Source of the DNA: Holophagaceae bacterium
GTDB lineage: Bacteria > Acidobacteriota > Holophagae > Holophagales > Holophagaceae
NCBI GenBank assembly: GCA_023257195.1
Contig: JALRCU010000042.1
Location: 1-32,164, forward strand
Length of the DNA: 32,164 nt
Direction of reading: 5' to 3'
Shown: positions 2,754 to 20,089 of the stretch, in pieces
Layout of the letters: each line of letters opens with the position of its first letter
How positions within the stretch are numbered: position 1 is the stretch's first letter
The notes under the pieces: generated by a model
The model's input: only the letters and a program-made list of their open reading frames with translations
Told to the model about the DNA's origin: nothing
Databases searched by the model: none
Program-made: the position numbers and the translations under genes

Positions 2754-3590
2754 ATGTTCCATTCATTTAGAAGATTCACCCAATCCTTAAGTTTTATGTT
2801 TTTTCTCTTTGCCCCTTTTTTTGATATCTTTCGATTTGATATTAGAAATAATGAATTTATTTTCCTCGGTAACCATTATTCTTTTACAACTTCAAATGGA
2901 ATTTATTTAGCCCTTGGATTTATATCGTCATTATTAGTCTTTATTATCCTTAGTTATACGAAAGGGCGTGTATTTTGTGGGTGGTCATGCCCTTATGGAA
3001 GTGTCATCGAATTTTTTAACGCAATTCGAACTGTGTTCGGATCAGGTACGAATCGCGCAGTTTATGACTTTATCAAAAGATCAGACGCACACCGAATCCT
3101 AGCTCAAGTCCTTAGTGTAGTTTTTTTGCTCATAGGACCAATCATTATTGCACTGGGGCTTTCTGCTTACCTTGTAAATCCTTCGCGCATTCTCACTATC
3201 ATTATGAATCCCTCAGCACTAAATAGCGAAGCAGCTCTAGGCTCATGGATACTTCTTTTTTCAGTATTGACATGGATTGTTGGGTTTATTGTACGATTTG
3301 ATTTCTGTAGAATTGTGTGTATCTATGGGATGGGACAATCCATCATTTATAGCTCTAACGACCAAGATAAGACACTGAGACCCAGGTTTAACTCAGAGCT
3401 AAGTGAATGCGGGTCTTGCACAGCATGTGTTAATACATGCTTTGTTGATCTTGATCCTAGATCTGAATCTCTGTTCATCGGCTACGGCGAGGGTTGTTTC
3501 AATTGTGGCGATTGTGCAGATGTATGCTCAGTGGTCCAAAACCACAGAGGAAAAGATTCTTTAATTACATTTAGGAGTAATAAACAATGA
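2754..3590 (+). CDS. Membrane-bound polyferredoxin, NapH/CcoG-like
   Basis: A 278-residue membrane protein with four cysteine groups: C75xxxC79 in GRVFCGWSCPYG, C185xxxC189 in DFCRIVCIYG, and two ferredoxin-type clusters, C219xxC222xxC225xxxC229 and C248xxC251xxC254xxxC258. Hydrophobic segments lie near 10-24, 50-68, 116-140 and 162-181. The layout resembles NapH, CcoG/RdxA and related quinol- or membrane-linked electron carriers with two [4Fe-4S] clusters. The prolines that usually follow the last cysteine of each cluster are F230 and S259 here. The gene starts 3 bases after the LPS permease and overlaps msrB by 4 bases (ATGA), so it is probably translationally coupled to msrB. A role in delivering electrons for methionine sulfoxide repair is an inference from this coupling. 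Confidence 0.8.
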   Translation: MFHSFRRFTQSLSFMFFLFAPFFDIFRFDIRNNEFIFLGNHYSFTTSNGIYLALGFISSLLVFIILSYTKGRVFCGWSCPYGSVIEFFNAIRTVFGSGTNRAVYDFIKRSDAHRILAQVLSVVFLLIGPIIIALGLSAYLVNPSRILTIIMNPSALNSEAALGSWILLFSVLTWIVGFIVRFDFCRIVCIYGMGQSIIYSSNDQDKTLRPRFNSELSECGSCTACVNTCFVDLDPRSESLFIGYGEGCFNCGDCADVCSVVQNHRGKDSLITFRSNKQ

Positions 3591-3958
3591 GGCTATCTAA
3601 TGACGAATGGAAGAAAAAACTTACCGCTCAACAGTACAGAGTGCTTATTGAAAAAGGGACTGATCCAAGATTTATGAGTTTCGAGTTTGGGGATGACGTA
3701 AGTATTTTATCCTGTGTAGGTTGCCAAAATCCCCTTTTTGCCGTCAGTGATAAATATGAATCCTCATCAGGTTGGCCAAGTTTTATCAGACCAGTTAACG
3801 ATACCGCCTTAGAAGAAATGCCTGATTTTACCCATGGCATGAATCGTATAGAGGTAATCTGCTCAAAATGTAAGGGGCACTTAGGGCACGTATTTGATGA
3901 TGGCCCTAAACCGACAGGTAAAAGGTATTGTATTAATGGAAGTATCCTGTCCAAGTAA
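3587..3958 (+). CDS. msrB: Peptide-methionine (R)-S-oxide reductase MsrB
   Basis: MsrB reduces the R epimer of methionine sulfoxide in oxidised proteins. The 123-residue protein has the zinc-binding pairs C43/C46 and C92/C95, the SSSGWPSF segment at 59-66, the GHLGHVFDDGP segment at 97-107, and the catalytic cysteine C115 in RYCING. There is no signal peptide, so the protein should be cytosolic unless the true start lies elsewhere. The length is normal for stand-alone MsrB, and MsrA is not in the window. Its start codon overlaps the stop of the preceding polyferredoxin gene. Confidence 0.95.
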   Translation: MRLSNDEWKKKLTAQQYRVLIEKGTDPRFMSFEFGDDVSILSCVGCQNPLFAVSDKYESSSGWPSFIRPVNDTALEEMPDFTHGMNRIEVICSKCKGHLGHVFDDGPKPTGKRYCINGSILSK

Positions 3959-4016
3959 CTTCAGGTCTATTTATTAAGGGTAGCTTTTAAGTTAAGCCGG
4001 ACATTTAAGCTATTAG

Positions 4017-4091
4017 TGGAGGCGCCGGTCGGATTCGAACCGACGTATACAGGATTTGCAGTCCCGGACCTTACCACTTGGCGACGGCGCC
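4017..4091 (-). tRNA. tRNA-Cys (GCA)
   Basis: Read on the minus strand, it folds as a full cloverleaf of 75 bases including an encoded CCA end (complement of 4017-4019) and discriminator U. The acceptor stem GGCGCCG pairs with CGGCGCC. The anticodon arm reads CGGGACTGCAAATCCUG-like, with GCA in the loop. The T arm contains GTTCGAATC. It lies 14 bases downstream of tRNA-Gly on the same strand, so the two are likely transcribed together, opposite to the flanking msrB and pdxA. No convincing T-run terminator was found between base 4016 and msrB. Confidence 0.97.
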
Positions 4092-4105
4092 GATAATACA
4101 AGGAA

Positions 4106-4180
<75 letters not shown>

Positions 4181-4261
4181 AGAAGTTTAATAATAACAGT
4201 ATGCGCTCCTTAAAACTAGTTCATAGAAAAGTATCTAATTATTAGTAATCTGTGAATGATT

Positions 4262-4265
4262 GGAG
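4262..4265 (+). promoter_or_regulatory. Ribosome binding site deciding the TTG start of pdxA
   Basis: GGAG lies 7 bases before a TTG at 4273. The TTG is directly followed by the conserved N-terminal family sequence (LIITLGDPSGIGPE), and no in-frame ATG lies nearby, so TTG is the likely start. Confidence 0.65.
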
Positions 4266-4272
4266 TGCTTAG

Positions 4273-5442
4273 TTGACCCCTTTACCAACCCTTATCATCA
4301 CCCTAGGAGACCCTTCCGGTATTGGTCCGGAAATACTGCTTAAATCACTACCGCAGTTAACTCATCGAGCAAAAATAGTAATTATTGGAAGTCGCGCTGG
4401 TGTTGAGCTGTTTTCTAAAAGCGAAAATAATGTCTATAAATGGCTATGGGGCGATCCACCCTTTTCAATCGCGAACTCAATGGAGTCATTTGGTTTTTAT
4501 CTAATCGATTCTAATTCTGACAAAATGCACTCTGCTGTATGGCTTGATCCCTACCCTCTTTCATTGAATAAATTAAAATTAGGTTTACCATCCGCCAATT
4601 CTGGTAAGTCATCAATGGAAGCATTGGTCCTCGCTACGCGATTAATGAGTAGTCATAAAGCGGATGCACTCGTCACATTACCCATATCTAAAACTTCAAT
4701 AATAGCCACGGGAGAGAGTTTTACTGGTCATACAGGTTATTTAATGGAAGCGACAAATTCAAAGTATACGCAAATGATATTTATGAGTCCAAAAATGAAG
4801 GTGGCTCTTCATACAGTCCATATGAGTTTAAAAAGAGTCATTGAGAGTATGGATGCAGAATCCATTTCTCAGAGTATCGAGTTTAGTGTGGGATCCTTCA
4901 TCGAACTGATGGGTACTTCTAACTTTAGGATTGGCGTTGCAGCTTTAAACCCTCATGCCGGAGAAAATGGGGCTTTTGGAAATGAGGATTCACTAATAGA
5001 GGAAGCTGTCAGGGGTTCGATTGCTAAGTTCAAAAAAAACAATTATTCACTGGATGTTGAAAAGTTTGGGTCCTCGATTTACTCAAAATATAAACCACAC
5101 CATCCGTGGAACCCCTACCCTCATCAGGAAATGGTAAAAAGGGAGGATGGTCTTAGGATTGAAGGTCCACTAGCTGCTGATTCAGTGTTCAAACGATCCT
5201 ATGATGGTGAATTTGACCTTGTAGTTGCCATGTATCACGATCAAGGACTAATACCGATAAAATTTGCAGAACCAACTCTCGCTGTAAATGTAACTTTTGG
5301 CCTCCCGTTTGTTCGAACAAGCCCCGATCACGGGACAGGATTCGATATTGCTGGTTTAGGAATCGCCGATCATCGTAATTTTCAAGAAGCTTCGAGGCTA
5401 GCCCTTAGATTGTCCATGCGCTCAAAAGGCCTATTCGAATAG
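4273..5442 (+). CDS. pdxA: 4-hydroxythreonine-4-phosphate dehydrogenase PdxA (with insertion)
   Basis: PdxA oxidises 4-phosphohydroxy-L-threonine in the deoxyxylulose-5-phosphate-dependent pyridoxal phosphate pathway. Visible family segments are TLGDPSGIGPEI near 10-21, LVTLPISKTS near 133-142, GHTGYL at 152-157, NPHAGENGAFG at 226-236 and VRTSPDHGT near 347-355. The three metal-binding histidines appear to be H183, H228 and H322 (in MYHDQG). At 389 residues it is about 60 longer than E. coli PdxA. Much of the excess is an insertion of some 35 residues near 253-292 containing KPHHPWNPYPHQE. Translation starts at TTG. It lies 53 bases upstream of glmU on the same strand. Confidence 0.93.
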   Translation: MTPLPTLIITLGDPSGIGPEILLKSLPQLTHRAKIVIIGSRAGVELFSKSENNVYKWLWGDPPFSIANSMESFGFYLIDSNSDKMHSAVWLDPYPLSLNKLKLGLPSANSGKSSMEALVLATRLMSSHKADALVTLPISKTSIIATGESFTGHTGYLMEATNSKYTQMIFMSPKMKVALHTVHMSLKRVIESMDAESISQSIEFSVGSFIELMGTSNFRIGVAALNPHAGENGAFGNEDSLIEEAVRGSIAKFKKNNYSLDVEKFGSSIYSKYKPHHPWNPYPHQEMVKREDGLRIEGPLAADSVFKRSYDGEFDLVVAMYHDQGLIPIKFAEPTLAVNVTFGLPFVRTSPDHGTGFDIAGLGIADHRNFQEASRLALRLSMRSKGLFE

Positions 5443-5484
5443 TGTTATCTCTAGTTTGAAAGATCAGTAGCATAATAAAATATT

Positions 5485-5490
5485 AGAGGT
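5485..5490 (+). promoter_or_regulatory. Ribosome binding site for the TTG start of glmU
   Basis: AGAGGT lies 5 bases before TTG 5496, which begins the conserved N-terminal sequence (IAVILAAGNSKRM). This makes glmU a second TTG-initiated gene in the row. Confidence 0.55.
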
Positions 5491-5495
5491 GTCAC

Positions 5496-6863
5496 TTGTC
5501 ATTCATAGCAGTTATATTGGCTGCCGGTAACAGCAAGAGAATGGTTTCTTCTAGGTCAAAGGTGTTGCACGAAATCCTTGGTGACTCCTCTCTCTTATGG
5601 GCTCTAAGAGCTATTCCGAAAGAAGTAAAAAATACGGTCATCGTGATCAACAAGAATCACGATGAAATAAAGCGCCTGGTTAAGGTTTGGGAAGACAAGA
5701 AACTTTTCAGTACAAGCGTTTACTTTGCCGTTCAGTCCTCGACAGTGGGTACAGCCCACGCATTGCTTTCAGCTAAACCATTAATCGACAAATTTAATGC
5801 AACCAATGTCCTTATTATGAGTGCCGATGTTCCACTAATAATGGAATCTAGCTTATCCAAACTTATAAAGAAGTGCCCATCGTTAGCCGTCGCAGATTTC
5901 ATTGAACCAAATGGATATGGAAGGATTTTCTTAAAAAAAGATGGAATACATTTGGCTTCCATCGTAGAGGACCTAGATACGAATAAAATGCAATCCCGTC
6001 ATCGGGTTGTGAATGGAGGTATCTATGCTCTTCCTTGTAAAAAGATTTTTCCTTTATTAAAAATGGTTAAAAATACCAACAAGCAAAAAGAATTTTATCT
6101 AACTGATGCAATCAATATACTTGCAGAAAATCAAAAGATTGAATCAGTACCTATCGACTCGCAAGAATTATTTGGATTGAATACTCGAACCGATCTTTCA
6201 CTTCTTCAAAACTATGCAAAAAACAGAGTGAATAGTAGATGGTTGAAAAGCGGGGTAACTATTTTAGATCCCTCTACAACGTTCATAGGCCCTCGAGTTA
6301 AGATAGGCTCCGATGTTTTGATTGAGCCCAATGTTACTTTAATTGGGGCCGTAACCATTGGTACCGGTAGCATAATCCAAGCTGGATCACGAATTGAAGA
6401 TTCCAAAATTGGAAATCACACCGTTATTAAGCCTTACACCCTCATCGATCGCTCGGTACTAACAAATCATGTTGTTGTAGGCCCCTTCGCACGTTTAAGG
6501 GAGGGCACTGAGTTATCAGATCATGTTCAAATAGGAAATTTTGTGGAAACCAAGAAGGCTAAGATATCTAAGGGCAGTAAGGCTAACCATCTTACTTACC
6601 TTGGGGATGTATCAATTGGAACTAATTCCAATATCGGAGCAGGAGTCATAACCTGCAACTATGACGGGCTCAAGAAGCACAAAACAGTTATCGGTGATAA
6701 TGTATTTATTGGCAGCGATACGCAGATAATTGCCCCAATCAAAGTCGGCGATGGAACTCTTGTGGCAGCGGGTACAACCGTAACCGTGGATATTCCCTCC
6801 CACCATAAGGCTAAAAGTCGCGTTCCTCAAGTAAACCGACCCCTTAAAAAGGCGAAGAAATAG
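5496..6863 (+). CDS. glmU: Bifunctional N-acetylglucosamine-1-phosphate uridyltransferase / glucosamine-1-phosphate acetyltransferase
   Basis: GlmU makes UDP-GlcNAc for peptidoglycan and lipid A. The 455-residue length is normal. The N-terminal nucleotidyltransferase domain (about 1-230) begins with LAAGNSKRM at 8-16 and keeps the substrate lysine K22 in SKVLHEI. The C-terminal left-handed beta-helix (about 250-445) shows hexapeptide repeats and the acetyltransferase signature NHLTYLGD at 364-371, with catalytic histidine H365, followed by NIGAGVITCNYDG. The start is TTG. The stop codon is immediately followed by the ATG of mlaE with no gap, so the two genes are probably co-translated. Confidence 0.97.
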   Translation: MSFIAVILAAGNSKRMVSSRSKVLHEILGDSSLLWALRAIPKEVKNTVIVINKNHDEIKRLVKVWEDKKLFSTSVYFAVQSSTVGTAHALLSAKPLIDKFNATNVLIMSADVPLIMESSLSKLIKKCPSLAVADFIEPNGYGRIFLKKDGIHLASIVEDLDTNKMQSRHRVVNGGIYALPCKKIFPLLKMVKNTNKQKEFYLTDAINILAENQKIESVPIDSQELFGLNTRTDLSLLQNYAKNRVNSRWLKSGVTILDPSTTFIGPRVKIGSDVLIEPNVTLIGAVTIGTGSIIQAGSRIEDSKIGNHTVIKPYTLIDRSVLTNHVVVGPFARLREGTELSDHVQIGNFVETKKAKISKGSKANHLTYLGDVSIGTNSNIGAGVITCNYDGLKKHKTVIGDNVFIGSDTQIIAPIKVGDGTLVAAGTTVTVDIPSHHKAKSRVPQVNRPLKKAKK

Positions 6864-7637
6864 ATGGTATCTTTTGTGGAATTTCTAGGGGCAAAAATCA
6901 TATCTAACGTTTCGTCTTTTGGTGATTTTATTCTTGTCAGCATTAGATGTTTCAGAAGTATTTTCAAGCGGCCCTTTGATACTAATTACTTTTTGAACCA
7001 ATGTTCTTTTGTAGGTGTTTCATCTGTACCTGTTGTTTTAATGACCTCTCTTTCAGTCAGCATGGTATTTGCTGTTCAATTAGCCTTTGGTTTCAAGCAA
7101 TTTCAAGCTGAAGGCTTGGCGAGTCAAGTCGAGGGGCTCGCTGTTATTAGAGAATTAGCACCAGTAATTACCGGGTTAATGCTTGCTGGACGCGTTGGAT
7201 CGGCAATGGCCGCTGAGATCGGTACCATGCGAATAACCGAGCAAATCGATGCCTTAGAGTGTTTAGCCACTGATCCCATTCATTATTTATTTGTGCCAAG
7301 ATTCTTGGCTGCAATTTTAATGCTGCCTATGTTGACAATACTTTCAATCTATATAAGCTTTTGGGGGGGTCATTTCATATTAGTTAATCTATCATTTCAG
7401 AGTTCAGACTTTTATACATCAGAGTTCTTTAAGTTAATATCCTCTTCGGATTTACGGATTGCTCTTATCAAAGCCTTCGTATTTGGTGTAATCATCTCTC
7501 TTGTTGGTTGCTGGAAAGGCTTCAGAACCGAGGGGGGCGCAGTTGGAGTCGGCGCGGCGCCTACCAGCAGTGTTGTTACATCAAGTCTATGGATATTGAT
7601 TGCTGACTTTGTTCTAACAAAACTTCTTTTGGTCTAA
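6864..7637 (+). CDS. mlaE: MlaE-type lipid ABC transporter permease
   Basis: MlaE forms the inner-membrane core of the MCE lipid transporter MlaFEDB, which moves phospholipids between the inner membrane and the outer envelope. The 257-residue protein shows the diagnostic MlaE segment near residues 90-135, with VIRELAPVITGLMLAGRVG, AAEIGTMRITEQIDALE and LATDPIHYLFVPRF. Hydrophobic segments lie near 48-72, 146-172 and 195-215, and again at the C-terminus. It begins directly at the glmU stop, and mlaF follows after 3 bases. Confidence 0.95.
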   Translation: MVSFVEFLGAKIISNVSSFGDFILVSIRCFRSIFKRPFDTNYFLNQCSFVGVSSVPVVLMTSLSVSMVFAVQLAFGFKQFQAEGLASQVEGLAVIRELAPVITGLMLAGRVGSAMAAEIGTMRITEQIDALECLATDPIHYLFVPRFLAAILMLPMLTILSIYISFWGGHFILVNLSFQSSDFYTSEFFKLISSSDLRIALIKAFVFGVIISLVGCWKGFRTEGGAVGVGAAPTSSVVTSSLWILIADFVLTKLLLV

Positions 7638-7640
7638 CTT

Positions 7641-8420
7641 ATGCCTATGATCAAACTTCATAATGTGTCAAAGGCTTTTGACCAAAATAAGGTTCTCGAT
7701 CGTATTTCACTCGAGGTAGAAGAATCTGAGAGTTTAGTTATCCTAGGGGGATCGGGCACAGGAAAAACAGTACTACTAAAAGTCATATTAGGCCTTCTTA
7801 GACCCAATGATGGAAACATTTTTGTCGACGGTGCTCGGGTCAACATTGATCAACCCACTGCCCTATTTGAAATAAGAAAGAAAATCGGAATGTGTTTCCA
7901 GATGGCAGCTCTATTTGATTCAATGACTGTTCTGGAAAATATTTCATTCGGCTTATCTCGACATACGAATTACTCGTCCGTGCAAATCCGATCGAGAGTC
8001 GACGAGTGCTTAACCTTAGTTGGCCTAAGAGACACCGCCACCCTTTACCCCTCGGAACTATCAGGGGGCATGAAACGTCGAGTCGGATTCGCAAGAGCCA
8101 TTGCGCTAAAGCCTAAGATCCTTCTTTTTGATGAACCTACAACAGGGCTCGATCCTGTAATGACTGATGTAATTTCTAAAGTTATTACAGATTTAAGAAG
8201 TGAGTTACGAGCGACGACAATTACTATCACGCATGATTTAAAGGTGGCGTTTAACATTGGCCAGAATATATCCCTGCTGCATAGAGGTTCAATAGTTGCC
8301 TCAGGAAGCCCCCAAGGTTTTGCATCGAACCAAGATCCCTTGGTCGTTCAATTCATAAAAGGAACATCCGAGGGCCCTTTTCTTGCCGATCCTCCCCCGA
8401 AATCACAAATAACGATATGA
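7641..8420 (+). CDS. mlaF: MlaF-type ABC transporter ATPase
   Basis: This is the ATPase that drives the MlaE lipid permease. The 259 residues contain Walker A GGSGTGKT at 36-43, the Q-loop glutamine Q87 in CFQMAALFDS, the ABC signature LSGGMKRR at 140-147, Walker B ILLFDEP at 160-166, the D-loop GLDPV, and the switch histidine H198 in THDL. The MAALFDSMTVLENI sequence after the Q-loop is typical of the Mla/Ttg2A/MKL branch. Genes on both sides are the matching permease and MCE protein. No MlaB-like STAS protein was found in the window. Confidence 0.95.
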   Translation: MPMIKLHNVSKAFDQNKVLDRISLEVEESESLVILGGSGTGKTVLLKVILGLLRPNDGNIFVDGARVNIDQPTALFEIRKKIGMCFQMAALFDSMTVLENISFGLSRHTNYSSVQIRSRVDECLTLVGLRDTATLYPSELSGGMKRRVGFARAIALKPKILLFDEPTTGLDPVMTDVISKVITDLRSELRATTITITHDLKVAFNIGQNISLLHRGSIVASGSPQGFASNQDPLVVQFIKGTSEGPFLADPPPKSQITI

Positions 8421-8450
8421 TTAAATACTCTTATGGATTAATAAAAAACA

Positions 8451-9827
8451 ATGAAGACAGAGTTTAAAGTCGGCATTTTCTTCCTAGCTACCATTGCTGC
8501 ATTGGTCACTTTAGTCTTATCTCTAGAAAAACTAGGGATATCTTCTAGACAAGATACAAATATTTATACGGCTTATTTTGATCAAGTTGCCGGCTTGAGT
8601 CGACAAAGTGACGTTCGGGCAGCAGGTGTTCGAGTTGGTAAAGTGGAGTCCATTAATCTCGAGGGTAACAAGGCAAAAGTTGTTTTTTCTCTACCTAAAA
8701 ATATAAATGTCTATTCAGACGCTCATGTAAGCCTGGTGTCGCTTGGCATACTCGGTGAGAAGTATATTGATTTTTCTAACGGTAGATTAACAAATACAAA
8801 TTTAGAATCAGGATCAACGTTGAAAACAGTTCAGGGGACTGGGTTGGATGAATTAGTGAATGTCCTAATAGACGTTGGGAAAGATATGAAAGCTATCACG
8901 GAAAGTCTTAACGGCGAAGGCGGTAAGTTGACATCCATTATGGATAATTTGGATGTTATGACTTCCGACTTGAGAGTACGAATTCCCCGACTAGCCGAAG
9001 ACTTTCAGAACGCTGCTCGAACCTTCAATGCATTCATTAAAGATAACGAAACAGAAACCTCAGGGGCCATCAAAGACTTTAGGTTACTCGCAACAAAGTT
9101 CCAAGTCACAGCAGATAACCTTAACGCCATGAGTCAGAAGATTAATAGTGGCGAGGGTACGCTTGGTAAACTTTTAAATGATGGTTCAACAGGTGAAAAG
9201 ATCAACAAGACTCTCGATTCACTAGAGTCGGCTCTGAGTGGCTATTCCAATCTGGACCTCAGGCTTGATGCTTCTGCTGCTTACTGGGCAGATAGAAGCG
9301 ATGCGCGTGCCGGACTCAGGATTGAAATGGCTCCGCAGAATGACTACTGGTACAGCCTAGATCTAAATAGTTCCCCGGACGGTAAGAACTCAAAGGTAAC
9401 CAGAACAACTACCAGTATTGATCCCATTACAGGGCTTCCGACAGGAATCGTTTCATCACAGTCAACAAGCATATCGGATAAAACCGTATCACTGTCGGCA
9501 GCCTTCAACAAAAAAGTAGGTAATGTTGTCTTCTCTGCCGGTATTTTTGATGGCAAGGGTGGCGGTTCCATCGAGGTGAGAAATTTGAATGACACCCTAA
9601 GATTGGGTTTTACTGCGTACGATTTTTCTAAAGATTCATCCATCAATAAAAATAATCCCAGATATCGTTTTACCTCTAGCTATCAGTTCTACAAGAATTT
9701 CTATATCCAAGCTGGTGTTCAGGATTTCGCCAATAAGGACTATCGAACAATGTTCGTGGGTGGCGGTATTCGTTGGAAAGATGAGGATCTTAAGAAGCTC
9801 CTGGGTCTTGCCGCTGTTGGAAGATAG
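8451..9827 (+). CDS. mlaD: MlaD-like MCE protein with long helical region and C-terminal beta-rich domain
   Basis: The 458-residue protein has an N-terminal membrane anchor at about 7-25, an MCE domain at about 37-112 (YFDQVAGLSRQSDVRAAGVRVG and LVSLGILGEKYIDFSNG-type segments), and a predicted helical stretch at about 130-262 with two glycine-rich breaks (NGEGGKL, NSGEGTLGKLLND). From about 265 to 443 it has at least ten alternating hydrophobic/polar strands rich in Y, F and G, ending with TMFVGGGIRW and then a short helix. E. coli MlaD is only about 183 residues. The last domain resembles an outer-membrane beta-barrel by eye, which is an inference. MlaD binds lipid and associates with MlaFE. 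DUF116 starts 2 bases downstream. The start ATG 8451 fits the MKTEFKVGIF family N-terminus. Confidence 0.88.
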   Translation: MKTEFKVGIFFLATIAALVTLVLSLEKLGISSRQDTNIYTAYFDQVAGLSRQSDVRAAGVRVGKVESINLEGNKAKVVFSLPKNINVYSDAHVSLVSLGILGEKYIDFSNGRLTNTNLESGSTLKTVQGTGLDELVNVLIDVGKDMKAITESLNGEGGKLTSIMDNLDVMTSDLRVRIPRLAEDFQNAARTFNAFIKDNETETSGAIKDFRLLATKFQVTADNLNAMSQKINSGEGTLGKLLNDGSTGEKINKTLDSLESALSGYSNLDLRLDASAAYWADRSDARAGLRIEMAPQNDYWYSLDLNSSPDGKNSKVTRTTTSIDPITGLPTGIVSSQSTSISDKTVSLSAAFNKKVGNVVFSAGIFDGKGGGSIEVRNLNDTLRLGFTAYDFSKDSSINKNNPRYRFTSSYQFYKNFYIQAGVQDFANKDYRTMFVGGGIRWKDEDLKKLLGLAAVGR

Positions 9828-9829
9828 AA

Positions 9830-10597
9830 GTGGAATCCATCAGTATTCAACCCCTTATTGGCTCAAGGCTTTTTAGGAGCGTAAGGTTCGGCATCCCTTT
9901 CATAGTCCTAGTTGTTTCGCTTTATCTTTTTCTTGAAACAAGAAATAACTTTGCCTCATGGTATTTAATTCTTACCATAACTTCCCTTCTGGCTATTGAA
10001 TTGTCAATGAGAGAGGGAGAGCGCTACATTGCTTCCCACAGCTCTATTATGCGCGTCGATCTATTTTTTGTAGATGCACTTAGACCCATATTTAAACTCA
10101 TAAAAAGGGAAGAGGTTTTTCTCATGAGTTTCTTCAGATGGAATAATGAAAAGGTTTATAAATGTTTCGTGGACTCAAAGTCGAAGAAAACACTTTTACT
10201 TCTCCCGCATTGCATTCAATGGTCTAACTGTACTGCACCTATCCTCGAAAAAATGGCTTCCTGTTACAACTGTGGTCTATGCCACATCGAAAATCTTGTA
10301 GAAGACACCGTCCAAGAACAGTGGGATGTAAGAATTACGAATCGAAGTTATAAGGCGTACATCGAAGCTATGAAAACAAACCCAGATCTCATCGTTGCTG
10401 TAAGTTGTACCGATCGTCTTCTGAAGGGGGTTCGAAAACTTCTCAATTATCCATCCTTTTTGATTCCATTAGAGCTTCCTTTTGGCATGTGTGTGGATGC
10501 AACTTTTAATTACGACCATCTCACATCAGCAATGTCCTTACTCGCGCAAAGACGAAATACGAATAATCCTCCGATTAAAATACTAAAGCACGGCTAA
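9830..10597 (+). CDS. DUF116 family cysteine-rich membrane protein
   Basis: The 255-residue protein begins at GTG, 2 bases after the MlaD-like gene. Two hydrophobic segments near 21-38 and 44-58 would anchor it in the inner membrane. The remaining soluble part has eight cysteines: C112, C128 (LLPHC), C134, C145, C148, C151 (CYNCGLC), C193 (AVSC) and C221 (GMC). The LPHC...C...CxxCGxC...C...C order is that of DUF116, a family without established function. The cysteine pattern suggests metal or iron-sulfur binding, which is an inference. It overlaps the next gene by 1 base (TAATG). A function in lipid or isoprenoid handling is suggested only by its position between mlaD and a prenyltransferase. 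Confidence 0.8.
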   Translation: MESISIQPLIGSRLFRSVRFGIPFIVLVVSLYLFLETRNNFASWYLILTITSLLAIELSMREGERYIASHSSIMRVDLFFVDALRPIFKLIKREEVFLMSFFRWNNEKVYKCFVDSKSKKTLLLLPHCIQWSNCTAPILEKMASCYNCGLCHIENLVEDTVQEQWDVRITNRSYKAYIEAMKTNPDLIVAVSCTDRLLKGVRKLLNYPSFLIPLELPFGMCVDATFNYDHLTSAMSLLAQRRNTNNPPIKILKHG

Positions 10598-11466
10598 TGT
10601 CTATCGATATAAGACCATATATCATGCATTTGAGGCCTAAAGAGTGGCCTATCGTTGGACTTCATTTGATTGCTGGCATGCTCTGTTCAAAGAACTTTGA
10701 TTTTCATGATGCCGCCAGGTCTACATTCATATTTATATTACTTCTTAACGGCGGAACTCTCGCCTTAAATTCCTCTTTCGACAATGATGAGGGTGATATC
10801 GCTTTCTTGAATAACCCACCCAAGCCACCCAAGTATCTCAAACACTTTGGTCTATTACTTTTATCTTTATCTCTCTTTGCTTCAATGTTAGAAGCGAATA
10901 AAACCATCGGTGATAAATATTTCTTTGAAATCATAATGACATGCGTTTTAATGAGTATCGCTTATTCGACACCTCCAATTCGCCTAAAGTCTAGACCCGG
11001 CTATGATCTAGTCATTAATTCAATTGGATTTGGCTTCTTTACATTTCTAGCGGGCTTTGTATCCACAGGAAACGCATTTACACCTGAGATTCTTAAACTA
11101 TCTGTTGGTTTTGGTTTTTTATTTGGCGCGCTATACCCGTTAACTCAAATTTATCAGAACGACGAGGATAGTCGTCGTGGCGATCAGACGTTGACATTAT
11201 GGTTGGGTACCAATAAAGCATTGAATTTATCCATGGGATTCTCGTTAGTAGCTTTTCTCTGGATTATCTGGGGGACACTCCACAGCGGAATATATACAAT
11301 CATGCTTCTTTTCAATCTTATGCTTTGGCTTTATTTGCTTTATTATTGGAAACGTCGCTTAAAATCGATGTCTGCAATGAATCATAAAAGATTTATGTAT
11401 TTTTTCTTACTATTATGGCCCTTGACTGATTTCATTGTCCTAGGCGCACATTTTGCTAGATATTAA
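10597..11466 (+). CDS. UbiA-family prenyltransferase, atypical subgroup
   Basis: UbiA-type enzymes are multi-spanning membrane proteins that transfer an isoprenoid chain to an acceptor. This 289-residue protein has about eight hydrophobic segments and two aspartate-rich motifs. The first, N58SSFDNDEGD67, is followed by the unusual IAFLNNPPKPPKYL; the second is IYQNDEDSRRGD at 185-196. The first motif differs from the common NDxxDxxxD...NRPL pattern of menaquinone and ubiquinone enzymes. It could be the MqnP prenyltransferase of the futalosine pathway, since mqnE and mqnC are nearby, or act on another acceptor. It overlaps the DUF116 gene by 1 base, and pgeF follows after 2 bases. Confidence 0.8.
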   Translation: MSIDIRPYIMHLRPKEWPIVGLHLIAGMLCSKNFDFHDAARSTFIFILLLNGGTLALNSSFDNDEGDIAFLNNPPKPPKYLKHFGLLLLSLSLFASMLEANKTIGDKYFFEIIMTCVLMSIAYSTPPIRLKSRPGYDLVINSIGFGFFTFLAGFVSTGNAFTPEILKLSVGFGFLFGALYPLTQIYQNDEDSRRGDQTLTLWLGTNKALNLSMGFSLVAFLWIIWGTLHSGIYTIMLLFNLMLWLYLLYYWKRRLKSMSAMNHKRFMYFFLLLWPLTDFIVLGAHFARY

Positions 11467-11468
11467 AG

Positions 11469-12116
11469 ATGGTTATTTCACTAAAAACACCCGAACATCT
11501 CCCAATTACATGGGGTTTCACAGACCGAAGTGATTTATCGGTTCGACATGATATTCAAACTCCGCAGCAGGTGCACGGTAATCATATAATCGAATATTCC
11601 CCAGACCAGTATCTTTGCGAAGCCGATGCAATTTTCACAACTATCCGAGGAGTCAAAATTGGAGTGCGAGTTGCAGATTGTGCTCCAGTTTTATTTGGGG
11701 GTAAATTATATGACGGTAATGTACTCATCGGTGCAGTTCACGCAGGATGGAGAGGTGCCACCAGCGATATTTGGGGTAAATTCATAGACTTATTTATTCA
11801 TCGTGGGGGCCTACTGGAGACTGCGGCATGGGCAATAGGGCCCTGCATTATGAAATGTCATTTTCAAGTAGGTAATGAGGTCTTTAAAGCTGCTGAAACC
11901 CATAAACATTGGGTTCAGGTGAAAGGTCAAAACTACCATGCGAAAGATTATTTTGATCTACCGGAGTTCATTCGTTTACAGGCGAAATCTAAGGGGCTCG
12001 ATCCAGCCTTAGAGTTCGGTCAGCCTGAATGTACCTATTGCAATAGTGAACGGTTCTATTCATTTAGGAGAGGTGACTTAAAAGATCGTCAGTACGGATG
12101 GATAAAAATCGAATAA
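11469..12116 (+). CDS. pgeF: Peptidoglycan editing factor PgeF / multicopper-laccase domain protein (YfiH family)
   Basis: The 215-residue protein belongs to the YfiH/DUF152 family. In E. coli its member removes wrongly incorporated L-serine from peptidoglycan precursors, and other members have purine nucleoside phosphorylase or laccase-like activity. The expected residues are present: H36 in QVHGN, C71 in VADCAPVLF, H91 in AVHAGWRGAT, the AIGPCI segment at 122-127 and the C-terminal FYSFRRGD. The reported metal site of the family uses two histidines and a cysteine from these segments. It is slightly short for the family (about 240-250) because the N-terminus is compact. It sits in the mla-centred operon, 2 bases after the UbiA-type gene. 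Confidence 0.88.
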   Translation: MVISLKTPEHLPITWGFTDRSDLSVRHDIQTPQQVHGNHIIEYSPDQYLCEADAIFTTIRGVKIGVRVADCAPVLFGGKLYDGNVLIGAVHAGWRGATSDIWGKFIDLFIHRGGLLETAAWAIGPCIMKCHFQVGNEVFKAAETHKHWVQVKGQNYHAKDYFDLPEFIRLQAKSKGLDPALEFGQPECTYCNSERFYSFRRGDLKDRQYGWIKIE

Positions 12117-12126
12117 ACTAAATAAT

Positions 12127-12492
12127 ATGATTACAATCACTGATATTCGCATCAACCTGGTCAAAGGCGACGATAAGCTCAAGGCCTATGCCACAATCAT
12201 CATTAACGACAGTTTCTTAGTGAGCGACTTAAGAGTCATTGAGTCTGATGATGGTTTCTTTGTAGCGATGCCAAGCCGTAGAAAACGCGATGGAAGTTTT
12301 AAAGATATCGCCTATCCCTTAAACAATGATTTAAGAATTGATATTGAAAAACAAGTACTTGTAGCATTTGAAAAGTCCTCGGGATCTAGGGCTATTTCTA
12401 ATATTGAACATGCGGAAGGCATAGTTCGCCCCGATCTTCTCAGTGCAGTAGAATTTGGTCTCACGCCAAAATCAGATAACTCAGCAAAATAA
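12127..12492 (+). CDS. spoVG: SpoVG family regulatory nucleic-acid-binding protein
   Basis: The 121-residue protein starts with the typical ITDIRINLVKGDDKLKAYAT sequence and contains the core RVIESDDGFFVAMPSR at about 37-52 and the KDIAYPLN segment at about 60-67. SpoVG was named in Bacillus sporulation but is also found in non-sporing bacteria, including spirochaetes and deltaproteobacteria, where it binds RNA and DNA. It is the last protein gene of the pdxA-to-spoVG row, and a tRNA-Gln gene follows 33 bases later. The extra 35 residues after the conserved core have no recognisable motif. Confidence 0.92.
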   Translation: MITITDIRINLVKGDDKLKAYATIIINDSFLVSDLRVIESDDGFFVAMPSRRKRDGSFKDIAYPLNNDLRIDIEKQVLVAFEKSSGSRAISNIEHAEGIVRPDLLSAVEFGLTPKSDNSAK

Positions 12493-12525
12493 GGCTTTTT
12501 TTGCGATAGAATAAAGGTTCTTATT

Positions 12526-12600
12526 TGGGGAGTGGCCAAGTGGTAAGGCAGCTGATTTTGGTTCAGCTTATCGTGGGTTCGAATCCTACCTCCCCAGCCA
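12526..12600 (+). tRNA. tRNA-Gln (TTG)
   Basis: This is a 75-base cloverleaf with encoded CCA. Acceptor stem TGGGGAG pairs with CTCCCCA, anticodon stem GCTGA pairs with TCAGC around the loop TTTTGGT (anticodon TTG), and the T arm contains GGTTCGAATCC. It follows spoVG by 33 bases on the same strand and could be processed from the same transcript. Confidence 0.97.
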
Positions 12601-12665
12601 ATACTCGATCTACAAATACTTAAAGTGTTGATTTTAATGTGCAATCTGAGAAGATAATAGATTCT

Positions 12666-12673
12666 AGGAAGGG
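12666..12673 (+). promoter_or_regulatory. Ribosome binding site of the glycosyltransferase gene
   Basis: AGGAAGGG lies 6 bases before TTG 12680, 9 before ATG 12683 and 12 before ATG 12686. The three codons are adjacent and in the same frame, so the start is uncertain by two residues. TTG or the first ATG gives the best spacing. Confidence 0.6.
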
Positions 12674-12679
12674 CCTTGT

Positions 12680-14194
12680 TTGATGATGCTTTATCGAGAA
12701 ATAGTCTTAGGTATTTATTTCACTATCCTGACGATTTTGAGTATATATGGGACTCACCGACTTTGGATTTTATACCTTTACTATAAACATAAAAATGAAA
12801 CCCCAGTGCCTCTTGGCGATGCATCATTTTTACCAAAAGTTACTGTTCAACTAGCTGTTTTCAATGAATACAATGTAGTGGAAAGACTGATAGCTGCCGT
12901 AACTGAACTAGACTATCCCAAAGATAAATTAGAAATCCAAGTCTTAGATGACTCAACAGATCATACAAAGGATTTGGTTGATGTCACTGTCGCAAGATAC
13001 AAAAAACTGGGTTTCGATATCTATTCCCTTCACCGCATCGACCGACGAGGTTACAAGGCAGGAGCACTCGAAGAAGGGTTAAGGGTAGTTAAGGGTGAAT
13101 TCGTAGCAATGTTTGATGCAGACTTCGTTCCAGACCCCGATTTTTTAATTAAAGCTGTGCCCTACTTTAAAGATAATAATATTGCTTTTATTCAAGGTTG
13201 TTGGACCCATTTGAATCGATCGTCATCGCTACTAACACAAGTCCAAGGCATTCTGCTTGATGGGCATTTTGTCTTCGAGCATACTGTACGACATCGTTCA
13301 AATGCTTTCTTCAATTTTAGTGGAACGGCAGGTATGTGGCGTGTATCTGCAATTGAGGATGCAGGTGGTTGGCAACATGACACGATAACTGAAGATGCAG
13401 ATTTAAGTTATCGAGCGCAGCTTAAAGGTTGGCGTGGTGTCTACCTCAAAGATCTCTTAGTACCAGCGGAACTTCCCACTGATGTCAACGCCTTCAAGAG
13501 TCAGCAGCATCGATGGGCTAAGGGTAATGCGCAAGTAATTCGAAAATTAATGCCTACAATTTGGAAATCGAAGGCTTCCCTTCACACAAAGATTGAATGT
13601 TGGTTTCATCTCACAGCTAATTGCAATTATCTGTTAGTAGTTATTTTAAGTATTCTCATGATTCCCGCAATGGTTCTAAGGGCTGGAACACCTGTCCATG
13701 TCCTTATGATGACCGATGGACCGTTTTTTGCCCTAAACGCTCTAAGTATTGGGCTATATTTTGGATTAAGTCAGAAAGAACTAACAAGCAATGAGGGTTG
13801 GAAATCACGGTTGAAGTACATTCCCGGGTTAATGAGCCTAGGTGTGGGATTAGCTTTCAATCAATCAAAAGCAGTTCTCGAGGGATTCTTCACTAATGAT
13901 AAGGAGTTTACAAGAACTCCAAAGATGGGCCATGGTTATGCTGCTAGCAATACTAGAATCAAGTACAAAGTTAGTAAAAGCGTCACTACCTATTTAGAGT
14001 TATTGTTTGCGTTTGCCTTCTTGATTTCAATATTTGTTAGCATTTATTTTAGTAAATGGGCTTCGTTACCCTTCTTGATTTTATTTTTTAACGGTTATGC
14101 CTACATGAGTCTATTATCTTTAGTTAGTACTGATACGTTGAAGTCTTTTACCAAGGCAGAGATAGAAGATGATCACGTTTTAGGAACCGAGTAA
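12680..14194 (+). CDS. Family 2 glycosyltransferase, cellulose/glucomannan-synthase-like
   Basis: The 504-residue membrane protein has one hydrophobic segment at about 7-35, a cytosolic GT-A domain and more membrane segments near 314-334, 345-363, 382-394 and 435-475. The processive GT2 residues are present: D90-D91 in VLDDSTD, the DAD motif at 146-148, TEDADLSYR at 237-245 (catalytic aspartate D239) and the QQHRW motif at 275-279 followed by AKG. It resembles CESA-like and glucomannan 4-beta-mannosyltransferase-like bacterial enzymes that use a nucleotide-sugar to extend a beta-linked glycan. Its product is unknown: no cyclic-di-GMP PilZ domain or cellulose export genes accompany it. It ends 3 bases before lspA, which runs in the opposite direction. 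Confidence 0.85.
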   Translation: MMMLYREIVLGIYFTILTILSIYGTHRLWILYLYYKHKNETPVPLGDASFLPKVTVQLAVFNEYNVVERLIAAVTELDYPKDKLEIQVLDDSTDHTKDLVDVTVARYKKLGFDIYSLHRIDRRGYKAGALEEGLRVVKGEFVAMFDADFVPDPDFLIKAVPYFKDNNIAFIQGCWTHLNRSSSLLTQVQGILLDGHFVFEHTVRHRSNAFFNFSGTAGMWRVSAIEDAGGWQHDTITEDADLSYRAQLKGWRGVYLKDLLVPAELPTDVNAFKSQQHRWAKGNAQVIRKLMPTIWKSKASLHTKIECWFHLTANCNYLLVVILSILMIPAMVLRAGTPVHVLMMTDGPFFALNALSIGLYFGLSQKELTSNEGWKSRLKYIPGLMSLGVGLAFNQSKAVLEGFFTNDKEFTRTPKMGHGYAASNTRIKYKVSKSVTTYLELLFAFAFLISIFVSIYFSKWASLPFLILFFNGYAYMSLLSLVSTDTLKSFTKAEIEDDHVLGTE

Positions 14195-14197
14195 GGG

Positions 14198-14662
14198 TCA
14201 CGCTTTACTATTATGATAATAATCGCTTAGAAACCAGCCTATAAGACCTATGACGATAAAACTATCAGCAAAGTTGAACGTCCAATAATGTAGGTCTTTG
14301 TAATAAAAATCGATGAAATCGATAACGTAGCCGTTAAGAGTGCGGTCGATAATATTCCCTATACTTCCTGAAAGGATCATACCGAGGCTGTAGCTCCCAA
14401 AGTTAGTCAATGTTTTTTTAAAATAGAGTGACCCAAAATAGATAATGGTAATTAACCCGATTATTATAAGCAATACAGTTTGCTGATGATTAGTAGATTG
14501 AGAAAGAAATCCGAAGATAATTCCAGGGTTCTCTGTAAGCTTTACATTTAAGAAAGAAGGAACTATTTCTTTAAACTTAATAGATACCGCTAACGATTTT
14601 GAATACTGATCAATCCCAACAAGAGATACGAGCCATAAGGTTTTAGGAAGCCAACTGGTCAA
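14198..14662 (-). CDS. lspA: Lipoprotein signal peptidase (signal peptidase II)
   Basis: LspA cleaves the signal peptide of lipid-modified prolipoproteins in the inner membrane. The 154-residue protein has four hydrophobic segments and the two catalytic aspartates: D106 in IGNIIDR and D133 in FNFADS. The TENPGIIFG segment at 43-51 corresponds to the NxGAAFG-type motif. Its start overlaps the ileS stop by 4 bases, the ileS-lspA order being very common in bacteria. A candidate substrate in the same window is the small lipoprotein at 19588-19710. Confidence 0.95.
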   Translation of the reverse strand: MTSWLPKTLWLVSLVGIDQYSKSLAVSIKFKEIVPSFLNVKLTENPGIIFGFLSQSTNHQQTVLLIIIGLITIIYFGSLYFKKTLTNFGSYSLGMILSGSIGNIIDRTLNGYVIDFIDFYYKDLHYWTFNFADSFIVIGLIGWFLSDYYHNSKA

Positions 14663-17466
14663 GTGAGTACAACCTTATAGCAGCGAGAACATAACTCCGG
14701 ATGATCAATTCTTACATGGAGGCTTTCGTGTTTCCAGCATCTCGGGCACTTGGGGAGCTTGGTCGGCTCAACAGAGTACTTGATCCCCACAGAAGAAGTT
14801 GGGTATTGTGGTTCATTTTTAAGGTTTATAACGACTTCTGAACACACAAAATAGTCCTTTAGATGGTCATCGAATTCACCCAGAATCATTCTTGTTAACG
14901 GTGAGTCCTCGAGACTAATTTTCGTATCCAAACTAGTTCCAATCAGTTTCCCTGCCCTCAATGGCTCCATCGAAGCGTGAATGTCTCTTCTTAATTGCCA
15001 AAGGGAGTTCCACTTTGATATATCGATTGAAGATTTGTCAGTTAAATCGGTGAAAGTAGTTTGATAGATACTAGTCTCTGGATGAAGAATTTCCCACGCT
15101 TCACTGACGGTAAAGCAGAGGATTGGGGCAAGGGTTTTTAGGAGTGAATCTAATATCTCGTGGAGGGTGATCACATGAGAGATTCTTTTTTTGTCTTGTA
15201 GAGAATCACAGTAAAGCGAATCCTTTATGATATCAAAGTAAATACTTGACAATTCGTTTTGACAGAATGAAAGAATAACTCGAGTGGCTTCAATATATTG
15301 GAATGATCGATAAGCTTCAATAATTTTTTTACTTTCCTCCTGAAGTCTTATTAGAATCCATTGATCGATCGGATTTCTATCAGTAAAGGGTAAGGAGTTT
15401 TCGGGAAAATTGAATCCATCCAAGGCACCTAACATAAAACGAAGTGTATTTCTTATCTTTCGATATGAATCTGCAGAGCGATCTAGAATTTCCTTAGAGA
15501 TTCGAACATCTTCATGGAAGTTAGATGTAGCTGTCCACCATCGCAGAATATCGGCTCCATAAGTTTTCAAAACTTCATCGGGGCTTACGACGTTTCCAAC
15601 GCTTTTGGACATTTTTTGGCCTTTACCATCGAGAACAAACCCATGCGTAATCACGGTTGAATAGGGTCGATTTCCCGAAACGGCTAGATTAAAAAGTAAA
15701 GAACTATGAAACCATCCCCTGTGTTGATCGCTTCCTTCAAAATAAATAAAATTACCGAAATCAGACGGAAGGATGGAAGGGTGTGTCTTCGAGATAACGT
15801 TTGCTGAGATTCCAGAATCCATCCATACGTCAAGAATATCGGTTTCTTTTTCCCACTCCATTGGATTCATGTCAATACCACGGCATAATTCATCAACGGA
15901 TACCCTATGCCAGGCCTCAATCCCCTCAACTTCAACTAATTGGGCTACTCTTTCGAAGAACTGAGGGTGCACTAAAGGCTTGCCGGATGTTTTATTTTTA
16001 AGAATAGGTATAGGGGTGCCCCAAGAACGCTGTCTTGAAATGCACCAATCCGGCCTCCCGGCGATCATGGATGTAATACGTGACTCTCCTTGATCGGGGA
16101 TCCATTGAACCTTTTTGATATTAGATAAACCCATACTTCGCAGTGTTTGATCTGACTGTGATGATAGAGTATCCATCGAGATAAACCACTGTTCGGTGGC
16201 TCGGAATAATATGGGGGTTTTCGTTCGCCAACAATGGGGATAGGAATGTCTAAGAGATTCTTGGGCGAACAATGAATTATGTTTTTTTAGTTTTTCGATA
16301 ATAATTCCATTAGCTTTAAATACATTTATACCTACAAGTTCATCGTCATTCAGGTGAGGTAGATACCTTCCATCTGCTCCAACGTATTGAAAGAGCCCAA
16401 GATGTTGCGCGACATTGAAATCGTCAACTCCATGATCTGGGGCTGTATGTACAATACCTGTTCCTACATCTGAAGTTACGTGGTCGGCTAGTAAAAATGG
16501 AGATGGTCTATCTATCCAAGGATGAACGGCGGACACATCAGATAAGAGGGTGCCTTTAAAGGCATCTCCCATTGTTGCTTTTGAATCAAAAAGCTGTTGA
16601 TTAATCTTATCTTTGAGTTCATAGGCGACTAGGTAACTTTTGGTATCAACAGTAAGAAAACAATAATCGAGATTCGGATTTACCGACAACGCTTTATTGC
16701 TGGGTAAAGTCCAAGGAGTTGTAGTCCAAGCTAAGGCATAACAATTCAACGGAAGTTTAATGGAGAGATTTGGATTTGGTTCGATTTTGAAAGAAACTGT
16801 AACAGCGATTGTTTCGTGGAGATCGTATTCTACTTCAGCTTCGGCTAAGGCCGTCCTAGCACCGTAACTCCAATGGACTACTTTAAGTTTCTTTGTAATG
16901 AGACCTATACTAAATAATTTTCCTAAATTGCGTATCGTTTCCGCCTCGTAGCGTGGCGCCATAGTGGTATAGGGATTCTTGAAGTCACCGAGAACTCCTA
17001 GTCTCTGAAAGTCCTTTGATTGATTATTTATCCAATTTGTAGCGTAATCTCTGCACTTCTTTATAAAAATTTCTTTAGAGAGATCTTTTCTTGAACTACC
17101 AAGTTCTTTTTCAACTGCATGCTCGATAGGAAGACCATGGCAGTCCCAGCCAGGTATAAAGGGCGACTCGTATCCATCGAGCCACATAGATTTAACAACA
17201 AAGTCTTTTAGGATTTTATTGAGTGCATGACCGATATGAATATGGCCATTAGCATACGGAGGTCCATCATGAAGAATTCGTCGGCCTTTACCGATACCCC
17301 TTTGATTTTGTTCTCTTTTGGTCTTTTCAATGGAAGCATAGGTTCCCTTCTGATCCCATTTCTCAACCAACTTAGGCTCTCTTTGGGGGAGATCCGCTTT
17401 CATTGGAAAACTAGTCCGTGGTAAAAATACAGAATATTTTTTTGCCGGTAAATCTTCTTTTGGCAT
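14659..17466 (-). CDS. ileS: Isoleucyl-tRNA synthetase
   Basis: IleS charges tRNA-Ile. The 935-residue length is normal for bacterial-type IleS. It has the HIGH motif at 77-80 (GHIHIGHAL), the KMSKS motif at 618-622 (GQKMSKSVGN), the editing-domain segment TTPWTLPSN, and a C-terminal zinc-binding finger with C907/C910 (CPRCW) and C926/C929 (CSRC). The first-class synthetase fold continues in the anticodon-binding domain (about 660-850). A strong AAGGAG ribosome binding site (complement of 17471-17476) lies 4 bases before the ATG. It is downstream of the biotin carrier gene by 69 bases and overlaps lspA by 4. Confidence 0.98.
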   Translation of the reverse strand: MPKEDLPAKKYSVFLPRTSFPMKADLPQREPKLVEKWDQKGTYASIEKTKREQNQRGIGKGRRILHDGPPYANGHIHIGHALNKILKDFVVKSMWLDGYESPFIPGWDCHGLPIEHAVEKELGSSRKDLSKEIFIKKCRDYATNWINNQSKDFQRLGVLGDFKNPYTTMAPRYEAETIRNLGKLFSIGLITKKLKVVHWSYGARTALAEAEVEYDLHETIAVTVSFKIEPNPNLSIKLPLNCYALAWTTTPWTLPSNKALSVNPNLDYCFLTVDTKSYLVAYELKDKINQQLFDSKATMGDAFKGTLLSDVSAVHPWIDRPSPFLLADHVTSDVGTGIVHTAPDHGVDDFNVAQHLGLFQYVGADGRYLPHLNDDELVGINVFKANGIIIEKLKKHNSLFAQESLRHSYPHCWRTKTPILFRATEQWFISMDTLSSQSDQTLRSMGLSNIKKVQWIPDQGESRITSMIAGRPDWCISRQRSWGTPIPILKNKTSGKPLVHPQFFERVAQLVEVEGIEAWHRVSVDELCRGIDMNPMEWEKETDILDVWMDSGISANVISKTHPSILPSDFGNFIYFEGSDQHRGWFHSSLLFNLAVSGNRPYSTVITHGFVLDGKGQKMSKSVGNVVSPDEVLKTYGADILRWWTATSNFHEDVRISKEILDRSADSYRKIRNTLRFMLGALDGFNFPENSLPFTDRNPIDQWILIRLQEESKKIIEAYRSFQYIEATRVILSFCQNELSSIYFDIIKDSLYCDSLQDKKRISHVITLHEILDSLLKTLAPILCFTVSEAWEILHPETSIYQTTFTDLTDKSSIDISKWNSLWQLRRDIHASMEPLRAGKLIGTSLDTKISLEDSPLTRMILGEFDDHLKDYFVCSEVVINLKNEPQYPTSSVGIKYSVEPTKLPKCPRCWKHESLHVRIDHPELCSRCYKVVLT

Positions 17467-20048: not shown

Positions 20049-20089
20049 TTACTAACTTAAAACGTTCCGCATTTTGTTTGGCTTACTGT

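Follow-up and report, generated by a model that had tools for sequence, protein, structure and literature searches.

A string of five genes occupies positions 6864 to 11466 of contig JALRCU010000042.1 from a Holophagaceae bacterium (assembly GCA_023257195.1); the whole stretch analysed, 32,164 nucleotides long, is referred to here as the window. Genes for the MlaE, MlaF and MlaD parts of an MCE/Mla transporter are followed by a gene for a DUF116 protein and one for an atypical UbiA-superfamily prenyltransferase. On the basis of homology, motifs, synteny, a recurring gene fusion and co-occurrence among genomes, DUF116 and UbiA are read here as a two-gene isoprenoid-lipid module that stands in one string with mlaEFD in Holophagaceae, a reading given a probability of about 0.5. 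The five genes were as follows.

mlaE, 6864..7637, + strand: inner-membrane permease of the MCE/Mla ABC transporter (Pfam PF02405 5.7e-75; TIGR00056 243.3 bits, cut-off 212.2)
mlaF, 7641..8420, + strand: ATPase (Pfam ABC_tran 3.8e-33; top NCBIfam match MlaF PRK11831, under its cut-off)
mlaD, 8451..9827, + strand: MlaD, apparently of the long kind (PF02470 2e-18; AlphaFold model; Foldseek)
DUF116, 9830..10597, + strand: DUF116 protein with a GTG start (PF01976 89.5 bits, cut-off 25, E 2e-25)
UbiA, 10597..11466, + strand: UbiA-superfamily intramembrane prenyltransferase (PF01040 63.1 bits, cut-off 34.2, E 3.3e-17)

The gene positions, the gaps of 3, 30, 2 and -1 bases (open reading frame coordinates) and the Pfam names agreed with an original prediction made for this DNA, which had proposed a lipid transporter linked to an isoprenoid or quinone modification step. 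That interpretation was half right, as the pairing of DUF116 with isoprenoid enzymes was independently supported while a dedicated tie to Mla was not. The iron-sulfur (Fe-S) binding and quinone chemistry that it also raised are kept here as inference.

The UbiA clade and the DUF116 protein

The scores above place the prenyltransferase in PF01040, and no NCBIfam subfamily cut-off was reached, the best match being 33.5 bits against 225 (TIGR02235). The protein did not qualify as MqnP, MenA, UbiA of the 4-hydroxybenzoate (4-HB) type, heme O synthase or ChlG by the NCBIfam models, and its weak matches were to quinone- and chlorophyll-type prenyltransferases, all under cut-off. The sole credible PDB match by profile was the prenyltransferase 4tq3 (E 1.3e-9). 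In a tree that included E. coli MenA, UbiA and CyoE, MqnP-like proteins and others as references, the window UbiA fell within a 17-row clade with support of 100/98. Only this clade was used, the deep order of the tree being unsure with long branches (E. coli MenA, an IspH fusion); L080 and L096 gave no match and were dropped. Given the family models and the clade, the protein was not taken to be the MqnP, MenA or heme O synthase of its genome.

The first motif of the window UbiA reads N58-x3-D62-x-D64-x2-D67 and the second Q187-x2-E190-D191-x2-R194-G195-D196-x-T198, with a YSTPPIRLK loop. An N-x3-D first motif and a YSxPPxRLK loop are shared with the UbiA superfamily (MenA, UbiA/COQ2, MqnP, ChlG, heme O synthase, DGGGPS). 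Unlike that superfamily, the clade has N-x3-D-x-D-x2-D in place of NDxxDxxxD, and all its members have Gln where the second motif otherwise has its first Asp. In the alignment, the second Asp motif took the form Q-x3-D-x3-G in the rows from Holophagaceae, the acidobacterial family f74, Gemmatimonadota and genome G087. In a separate alignment of Holophagaceae UbiA proteins, with starts set by rule, the Gln was invariant in 38/38. The MenA, UbiA and MqnP-like rows carried Asp at this position. The literal motif forms of the superfamily were absent from the window protein. This does not decide membership, because the same Asp is missing in the alignment from E. coli CyoE, whose place in the superfamily is accepted. 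The clade is uncharacterised and distinct, which bears out the earlier description of this UbiA as atypical. None of the reference enzymes in the tree has its active-site change, and the acceptor or the metal chemistry may differ.

The DUF116 protein (PF01976, scores above) has the eight cysteines counted earlier, and seven of them (C128, C134, C145, C148, C151, C193 and C221) were invariant in 40/40 Holophagaceae proteins, aligned with starts set by rule. Two membrane segments had been predicted; hydropathy gave one clear segment at 17-35, and the second appeared only as an AlphaFold helix at 42-60. The model (mean predicted local distance difference test score, pLDDT, 83.4) has helices at 13-36 and 42-60 and more to 113, followed by an alternating strand-helix domain that is flavodoxin/REC-like at 118-241, with the loop 130-140 near the cysteines mostly poorly modelled. 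Foldseek returned no match under E 0.001 for this model. In a VIA-align comparison limited to residues 118-241, the top row was 3kip (Z 8.2, root-mean-square deviation 3.4, 107 aligned), and Spo0F 1srr was matched with Z 8.0, a deviation of 3.6 and 97 aligned, Z near 8 being common for this tool. Spo0F 1SRR has also been found by sequence profile for an archaeal DUF116 member (PMC5898192, section 3.6). A search of PDB sequences gave six matches, to alphaRep-type designs, over 18-42 positions only.

In its N-terminal membrane part, its CxxCxxC stretch and its flavodoxin-like domain, the window protein resembles DUF116 (COG1852, arCOG02078) in general. It differs from the known contexts of the family (PMC5898192) in adjoining a UbiA prenyltransferase and mlaEFD. 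That paper, the only one in which the literature search met DUF116 or COG1852, gives metal binding as a prediction only. DUF116 proteins with three cysteines and lacking the CxxCGxC stretch were found in three Gemmatimonadota (L345, L350, L358), another bacterium (L361) and an acidobacterial locus (L297); L218, L219, L221, L294 and L309 offered no anchor and were left out of this cysteine alignment and aligned separately. Since the divergent proteins keep only three cysteines, C128, C193 and C221 look like a core and C134, C145, C148 and C151 like an addition. The most likely cofactor of the seven invariant cysteines would be an Fe-S cluster.

DUF116 and isoprenoid enzymes in other lineages

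DUF116 was found in 55 of 396 Acidobacteriota genomes, comprising 38 Holophagaceae and 17 others (E-values of whole-genome searches are per genome, and the identity of the Holophagaceae and Acidobacteriota search sets was taken from the titles of named contigs). A fusion of DUF116 to a polyprenyl synthetase was present in nine of these 17 and in four separately fetched genomes of the window's class, and thus in 13 of the 21 acidobacterial DUF116 places fetched outside Holophagaceae. The synthetase was recognised by Pfam for four and by tblastn for nine; in L292 and L293 it was matched in two pieces. All seven cysteines were kept in 13/13 of the fused DUF116 domains as aligned. The same fusion was known earlier from Pirellula (PMC5898192, section 3.6).

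The UbiA clade was found in 42 of the 396 Acidobacteriota genomes at E 1e-25, namely 39 Holophagaceae, two f74 genomes (G297 and G318) and, weakly, G087. In G318 the DUF116-UbiA pair recurs at locus L214 in the order mqnE-DUF116-UbiA with no mla gene adjoining, the mlaE genes lying on other contigs. In the other f74 genome (L301) DUF116 ends at the contig edge.

Among 249 Gemmatimonadota genomes, 37 had the UbiA clade, 45 had DUF116 and 35 had both. DUF116 thus occurred in 35/37 genomes with the UbiA clade as against 10/212 without it (Fisher 3e-31, kinship ignored); both searches covered the same 249 genomes, as judged from the genome handles. This co-occurrence favours the isoprenoid pairing of DUF116.

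The neighbourhood survey that had been proposed gave a divided answer. The condition named earlier as refuting, that such DUF116 and UbiA genes are seldom adjacent to mlaEFD in related genomes, did not hold in Holophagaceae, where mlaD adjoined DUF116 in 47 of 50 informative loci. Outside the family, the UbiA clade had no mlaE or mlaD match nearby at any of 26 loci (25 Gemmatimonadota and one other), some of which had short flanks. One 33% ATPase match near UbiA at L186 was not mla-specific. In the same 26 loci tblastn with Holophagaceae queries found no DUF116 near UbiA, a search that can miss the divergent form; because divergent Gemmatimonadota DUF116 may be missed in this way, contig positions were used to establish the separation of the two genes. 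The neighbours of the Gemmatimonadota UbiA genes, which by eye we take to be mutL, miaA, bshA, uppP, birA, coaX and groESL, brought no pathway to light.

The conserved string and the MlaEFD transporter

The order pdxA-glmU-mlaEFD-DUF116-UbiA-pgeF-spoVG was repeated, within contig reach, in 40 Holophagaceae loci. In the window the neighbours of the five genes included the following.

PdxA, 4273-5442: Pfam/NCBIfam matches in separate stretches with about 40 residues unmatched in between
glmU, 5496..6863, + strand: upstream member of the conserved string (TIGR01173 466.8, cut-off 366.85)
pgeF, 11469..12116, + strand: downstream member of the conserved string (PF02578 7.8e-38; TIGR00726 118.8, under the cut-off of 141.15)

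Across the 40 loci, mlaD adjoined DUF116 in 36 of the 39 that were informative; the two were about 3 kb apart in L070, no mla gene was nearby in L056 and L059, and L054 ended at the contig edge. A second, overlapping set consisted of 54 Holophagaceae loci among 80 named loci, in which distances ran from blast match to stop codon and start codons were not used. Here mlaD lay within 351 bases of DUF116 in 47/47 loci having mlaD. L149, L169 and L184 had ample flank yet no mlaD, and four others were ended by a contig edge. Both DUF116 and UbiA were found in 51 of the 54 loci, directly adjacent in 46 and spaced by 0.9-1.3 kb in five; no DUF116 was found in L149, L156 and L169. The insert between the pair in L039 was a quinone-oxidoreductase-like gene (read by eye). 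L149 and L169 both belong to the Holophagaceae bin Nt197P3bin133, presumably from termite gut, which has two UbiA-clade genes on separate contigs, each followed by a pgeF match.

The arrangement did not hold throughout the family, as DUF116 was not beside mlaEFD in genera g2 (L056, genome G003) and g9 (L059, L070). DUF116 was present in 57 of 61 family genomes searched with the window protein (absent from G001, G028, G033 and G052), and among 39 Holophagaceae genomes drawn the UbiA clade was found in all 39 (one match partial) and DUF116 in 38. G001, the third genome of the window's genus, was without mlaE and DUF116 and had one UbiA fewer; since it is 84% complete, gap and loss are indistinguishable there.

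The short gaps had been taken as the mark of one transcript and of coupled translation in a unit bounded by mlaE and UbiA. The mark proved a weak one, and the borders did not hold. There are 0 bases between glmU and mlaE, 2 between UbiA and pgeF and 10 between pgeF and spoVG, so that the string continues closely on both sides. Because 95.3% of the window is coding (a share that depends on the chosen open reading frames), closely packed genes are normal here and say little in favour of a special unit, and the spacing was therefore rejected as proof of a special operon. A consensus scan of 3500-14700 showed no excess of promoter-like sites (19 against a shuffle mean of 28.2) or terminator-like sites (6 against 8.8 in shuffles). 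The string may be read as a single transcript. The conserved unit is the whole string, glmU and pgeF included. With glmU, pdxA, pgeF and spoVG kept in it, none of which gives any hint of a part in lipid transport, the conserved order is not specific to the lipid genes. The presence of the pair in one string with mla is peculiar to this family.

MlaE, MlaF and MlaD occur together in the string as members of the Mla/MCE system, and the genome has one MlaD. None of MlaA, MlaB and MlaC was among the ten open reading frames scanned from 4273 to 14194, the part of the genome that this search covered. The MlaD model (mean pLDDT 57.7) consists of a transmembrane helix (3-30), an MCE domain (36-126), helices (132-262) and 12 predicted beta strands (269-442), with block pLDDT of 48-84 over 271-440 and at most 50 in the helical part. 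Foldseek matched it best to chains of MlaD and Mce1, with E as low as 1.2e-10. A long MlaD with an envelope-spanning layout is described in a minimal MlaEFD of Veillonella parvula that acts on glycerophospholipids (PMC10665443). As there, the window has mlaE, mlaF and mlaD in one string and an MlaD modelled with transmembrane helix, MCE domain, helical stretch and C-terminal strands; unlike there, mlaEFD is followed by DUF116 and UbiA. The main text of that paper does not mention DUF116, UbiA or Acidobacteri. By this low-confidence model, the window MlaD resembles the long type with a beta-barrel tip, which is held to span the envelope.

The proposed module and its alternatives

In the proposed module, UbiA would work within the inner membrane and attach a prenyl chain, taken from a prenyl diphosphate, to an acceptor. 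Since a separate MqnP-like enzyme is encoded in the genome, this acceptor is probably other than the usual precursor of menaquinone. DUF116 would be anchored in the same membrane through its N-terminal helices, and its flavodoxin-like domain, most likely with an Fe-S cluster on the seven cysteines, would serve the UbiA pathway by electron transfer in a redox step. The pair would be read in one string with mlaEFD in Holophagaceae, where it is possible that MlaEFD carries the UbiA product.

Several observations weigh against this proposal. No synthetase fusion was present in eight of the 21 DUF116 places fetched from Acidobacteriota outside Holophagaceae: the pair at L214, the stand-alone genes of L215-L217 and L297, and the divergent genes of L298-L300, including the long DUF116 frames of L298 and L300. 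DUF116 and UbiA lay on different contigs in 35/35 Gemmatimonadota genomes with both, ten Gemmatimonadota had DUF116 and no UbiA clade (two the reverse), and the three aligned Gemmatimonadota DUF116 proteins were without four of the seven cysteines. In Holophagaceae the genes of G003 (g2) are dispersed, with DUF116, UbiA and mlaE on three contigs. The neighbours of Gemmatimonadota DUF116, read by eye as an FAD oxidase, thyX, kamA and a thiolase, appear unrelated and pointed to no pathway. In archaea, genes for sulfite or nitrite reductases or for an ATPase adjoin DUF116 (PMC5898192, section 3.6), and DUF116 stands beside pyruvate:ferredoxin oxidoreductase-like genes in L215 and L216 (by eye). 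With neighbours of this sort, the role of DUF116 may reach beyond isoprenoids. The genome's MqnP-like protein scored under the cut-offs of three dedicated MqnP models, and its identity as MqnP is for that reason not certain. The stand-alone DUF116 genes of L215 (7137-7730) and L216 (7247-7846), from other Acidobacteriota, encode about 200 amino acids each.

The quinone route of the host bears on one alternative. Menaquinone is likely made via the futalosine route, as drawn from mqnE (aminofutalosine synthase) at window 20078-21223. The genome has two more UbiA-like genes beside that of the locus. One belongs to the general polyprenyltransferases (TIGR01475 292, cut-off 180.8) and in the tree joined the MqnP-like clade. 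The other is the C-terminal domain of a 573-amino-acid IspH-UbiA protein (L103 1423-3144, - strand, G000:C33), in which IspH/LytB, the 4-hydroxy-3-methylbut-2-enyl diphosphate (HMB-PP) reductase, is joined to a UbiA-like domain of 30.6 bits, under the Pfam UbiA cut-off of 34.2.

It is conceivable, though rather unlikely, that the pair serves menaquinone metabolism, the window UbiA being a second, alternative prenyltransferase for a product of the futalosine pathway or for a variant form of menaquinone, with DUF116 giving electrons. At L214 mqnE (TIGR03700 471, cut-off 434.55) directly precedes DUF116-UbiA, mqnE is also present in the window, the weak NCBIfam matches are of quinone and chlorophyll type, and the MqnP-like protein misses the dedicated cut-offs. 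However, a UbiA of the MqnP-like clade is already present in the genome, mqnE is 8.6 kb from UbiA in the window, and the mqnE link was seen at one locus only, the other f74 DUF116 ending at a contig edge. The literature search found no paper combining MqnP, futalosine and prenyltransferase.

A dedicated five-gene unit, in which UbiA and DUF116 make or modify the same lipid that is transported by MlaEFD towards the outer membrane or away from it, is unlikely. It would account for the adjacency of mlaD and DUF116 in both Holophagaceae sets (47/50 and 36/39 informative loci) and fits the envelope-spanning layout modelled for MlaD and described for Veillonella (PMC10665443). DUF116 is nevertheless apart from mla in g2, g9 and f74, neither mlaE nor mlaD was found at the UbiA loci outside the family (some flanks short), glmU, pgeF and spoVG share the string, and the Veillonella transporter handles glycerophospholipids according to the same paper. 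No paper joining mlaD, UbiA, operon and prenyltransferase was found in the literature search.

That DUF116 and UbiA are unrelated to each other and to mla within a conserved housekeeping string is quite unlikely, as the unrelated pdxA, glmU, pgeF and spoVG kept in the string, the 95% coding density and the separate contigs in Gemmatimonadota would suit it but the DUF116-UbiA pair in the different context of f74, the Gemmatimonadota co-occurrence and the synthetase fusion all speak against it.

A broader form of the isoprenoid-lipid module is a long shot. Here DUF116 would act with prenyl-diphosphate enzymes in general as their redox partner, in some Acidobacteriota as a fusion with the chain-making enzyme and in others paired with the Q-motif UbiA that uses the chain, and the product would be an undescribed isoprenoid lipid common to Holophagaceae and Gemmatimonadota that MlaEFD puts in the outer membrane in Holophagaceae. 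If the product does travel via MlaEFD, the cargo of the transporter would be widened beyond glycerophospholipids. The partner enzyme, the recurring fusion and the co-occurrence give DUF116 a testable pathway in culturable Geothrix.

DUF116 and UbiA were both retained in the window's genome of 1.2 Mb. The window UbiA was 76% identical to its nearest titled contig, Acidobacteriota LBMAG_Acidobacteria_hypo.bin1, and further near relatives by titled contigs were Holophagaceae, Geothrix and Holophaga. The window may belong to UBA12189, which is described as a streamlined Holophagaceae genus with genomes under 1.4 Mb and a guanine-cytosine (GC) content of 44.3-48.7% (PMC11561045); the 38-44% GC of the window (2-kb blocks) lies mostly under that range. 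Elsewhere in the window, a single open reading frame of 743 amino acids (519-2750) was matched by LptF_LptG in four stretches and may be a fused LptF-LptG.

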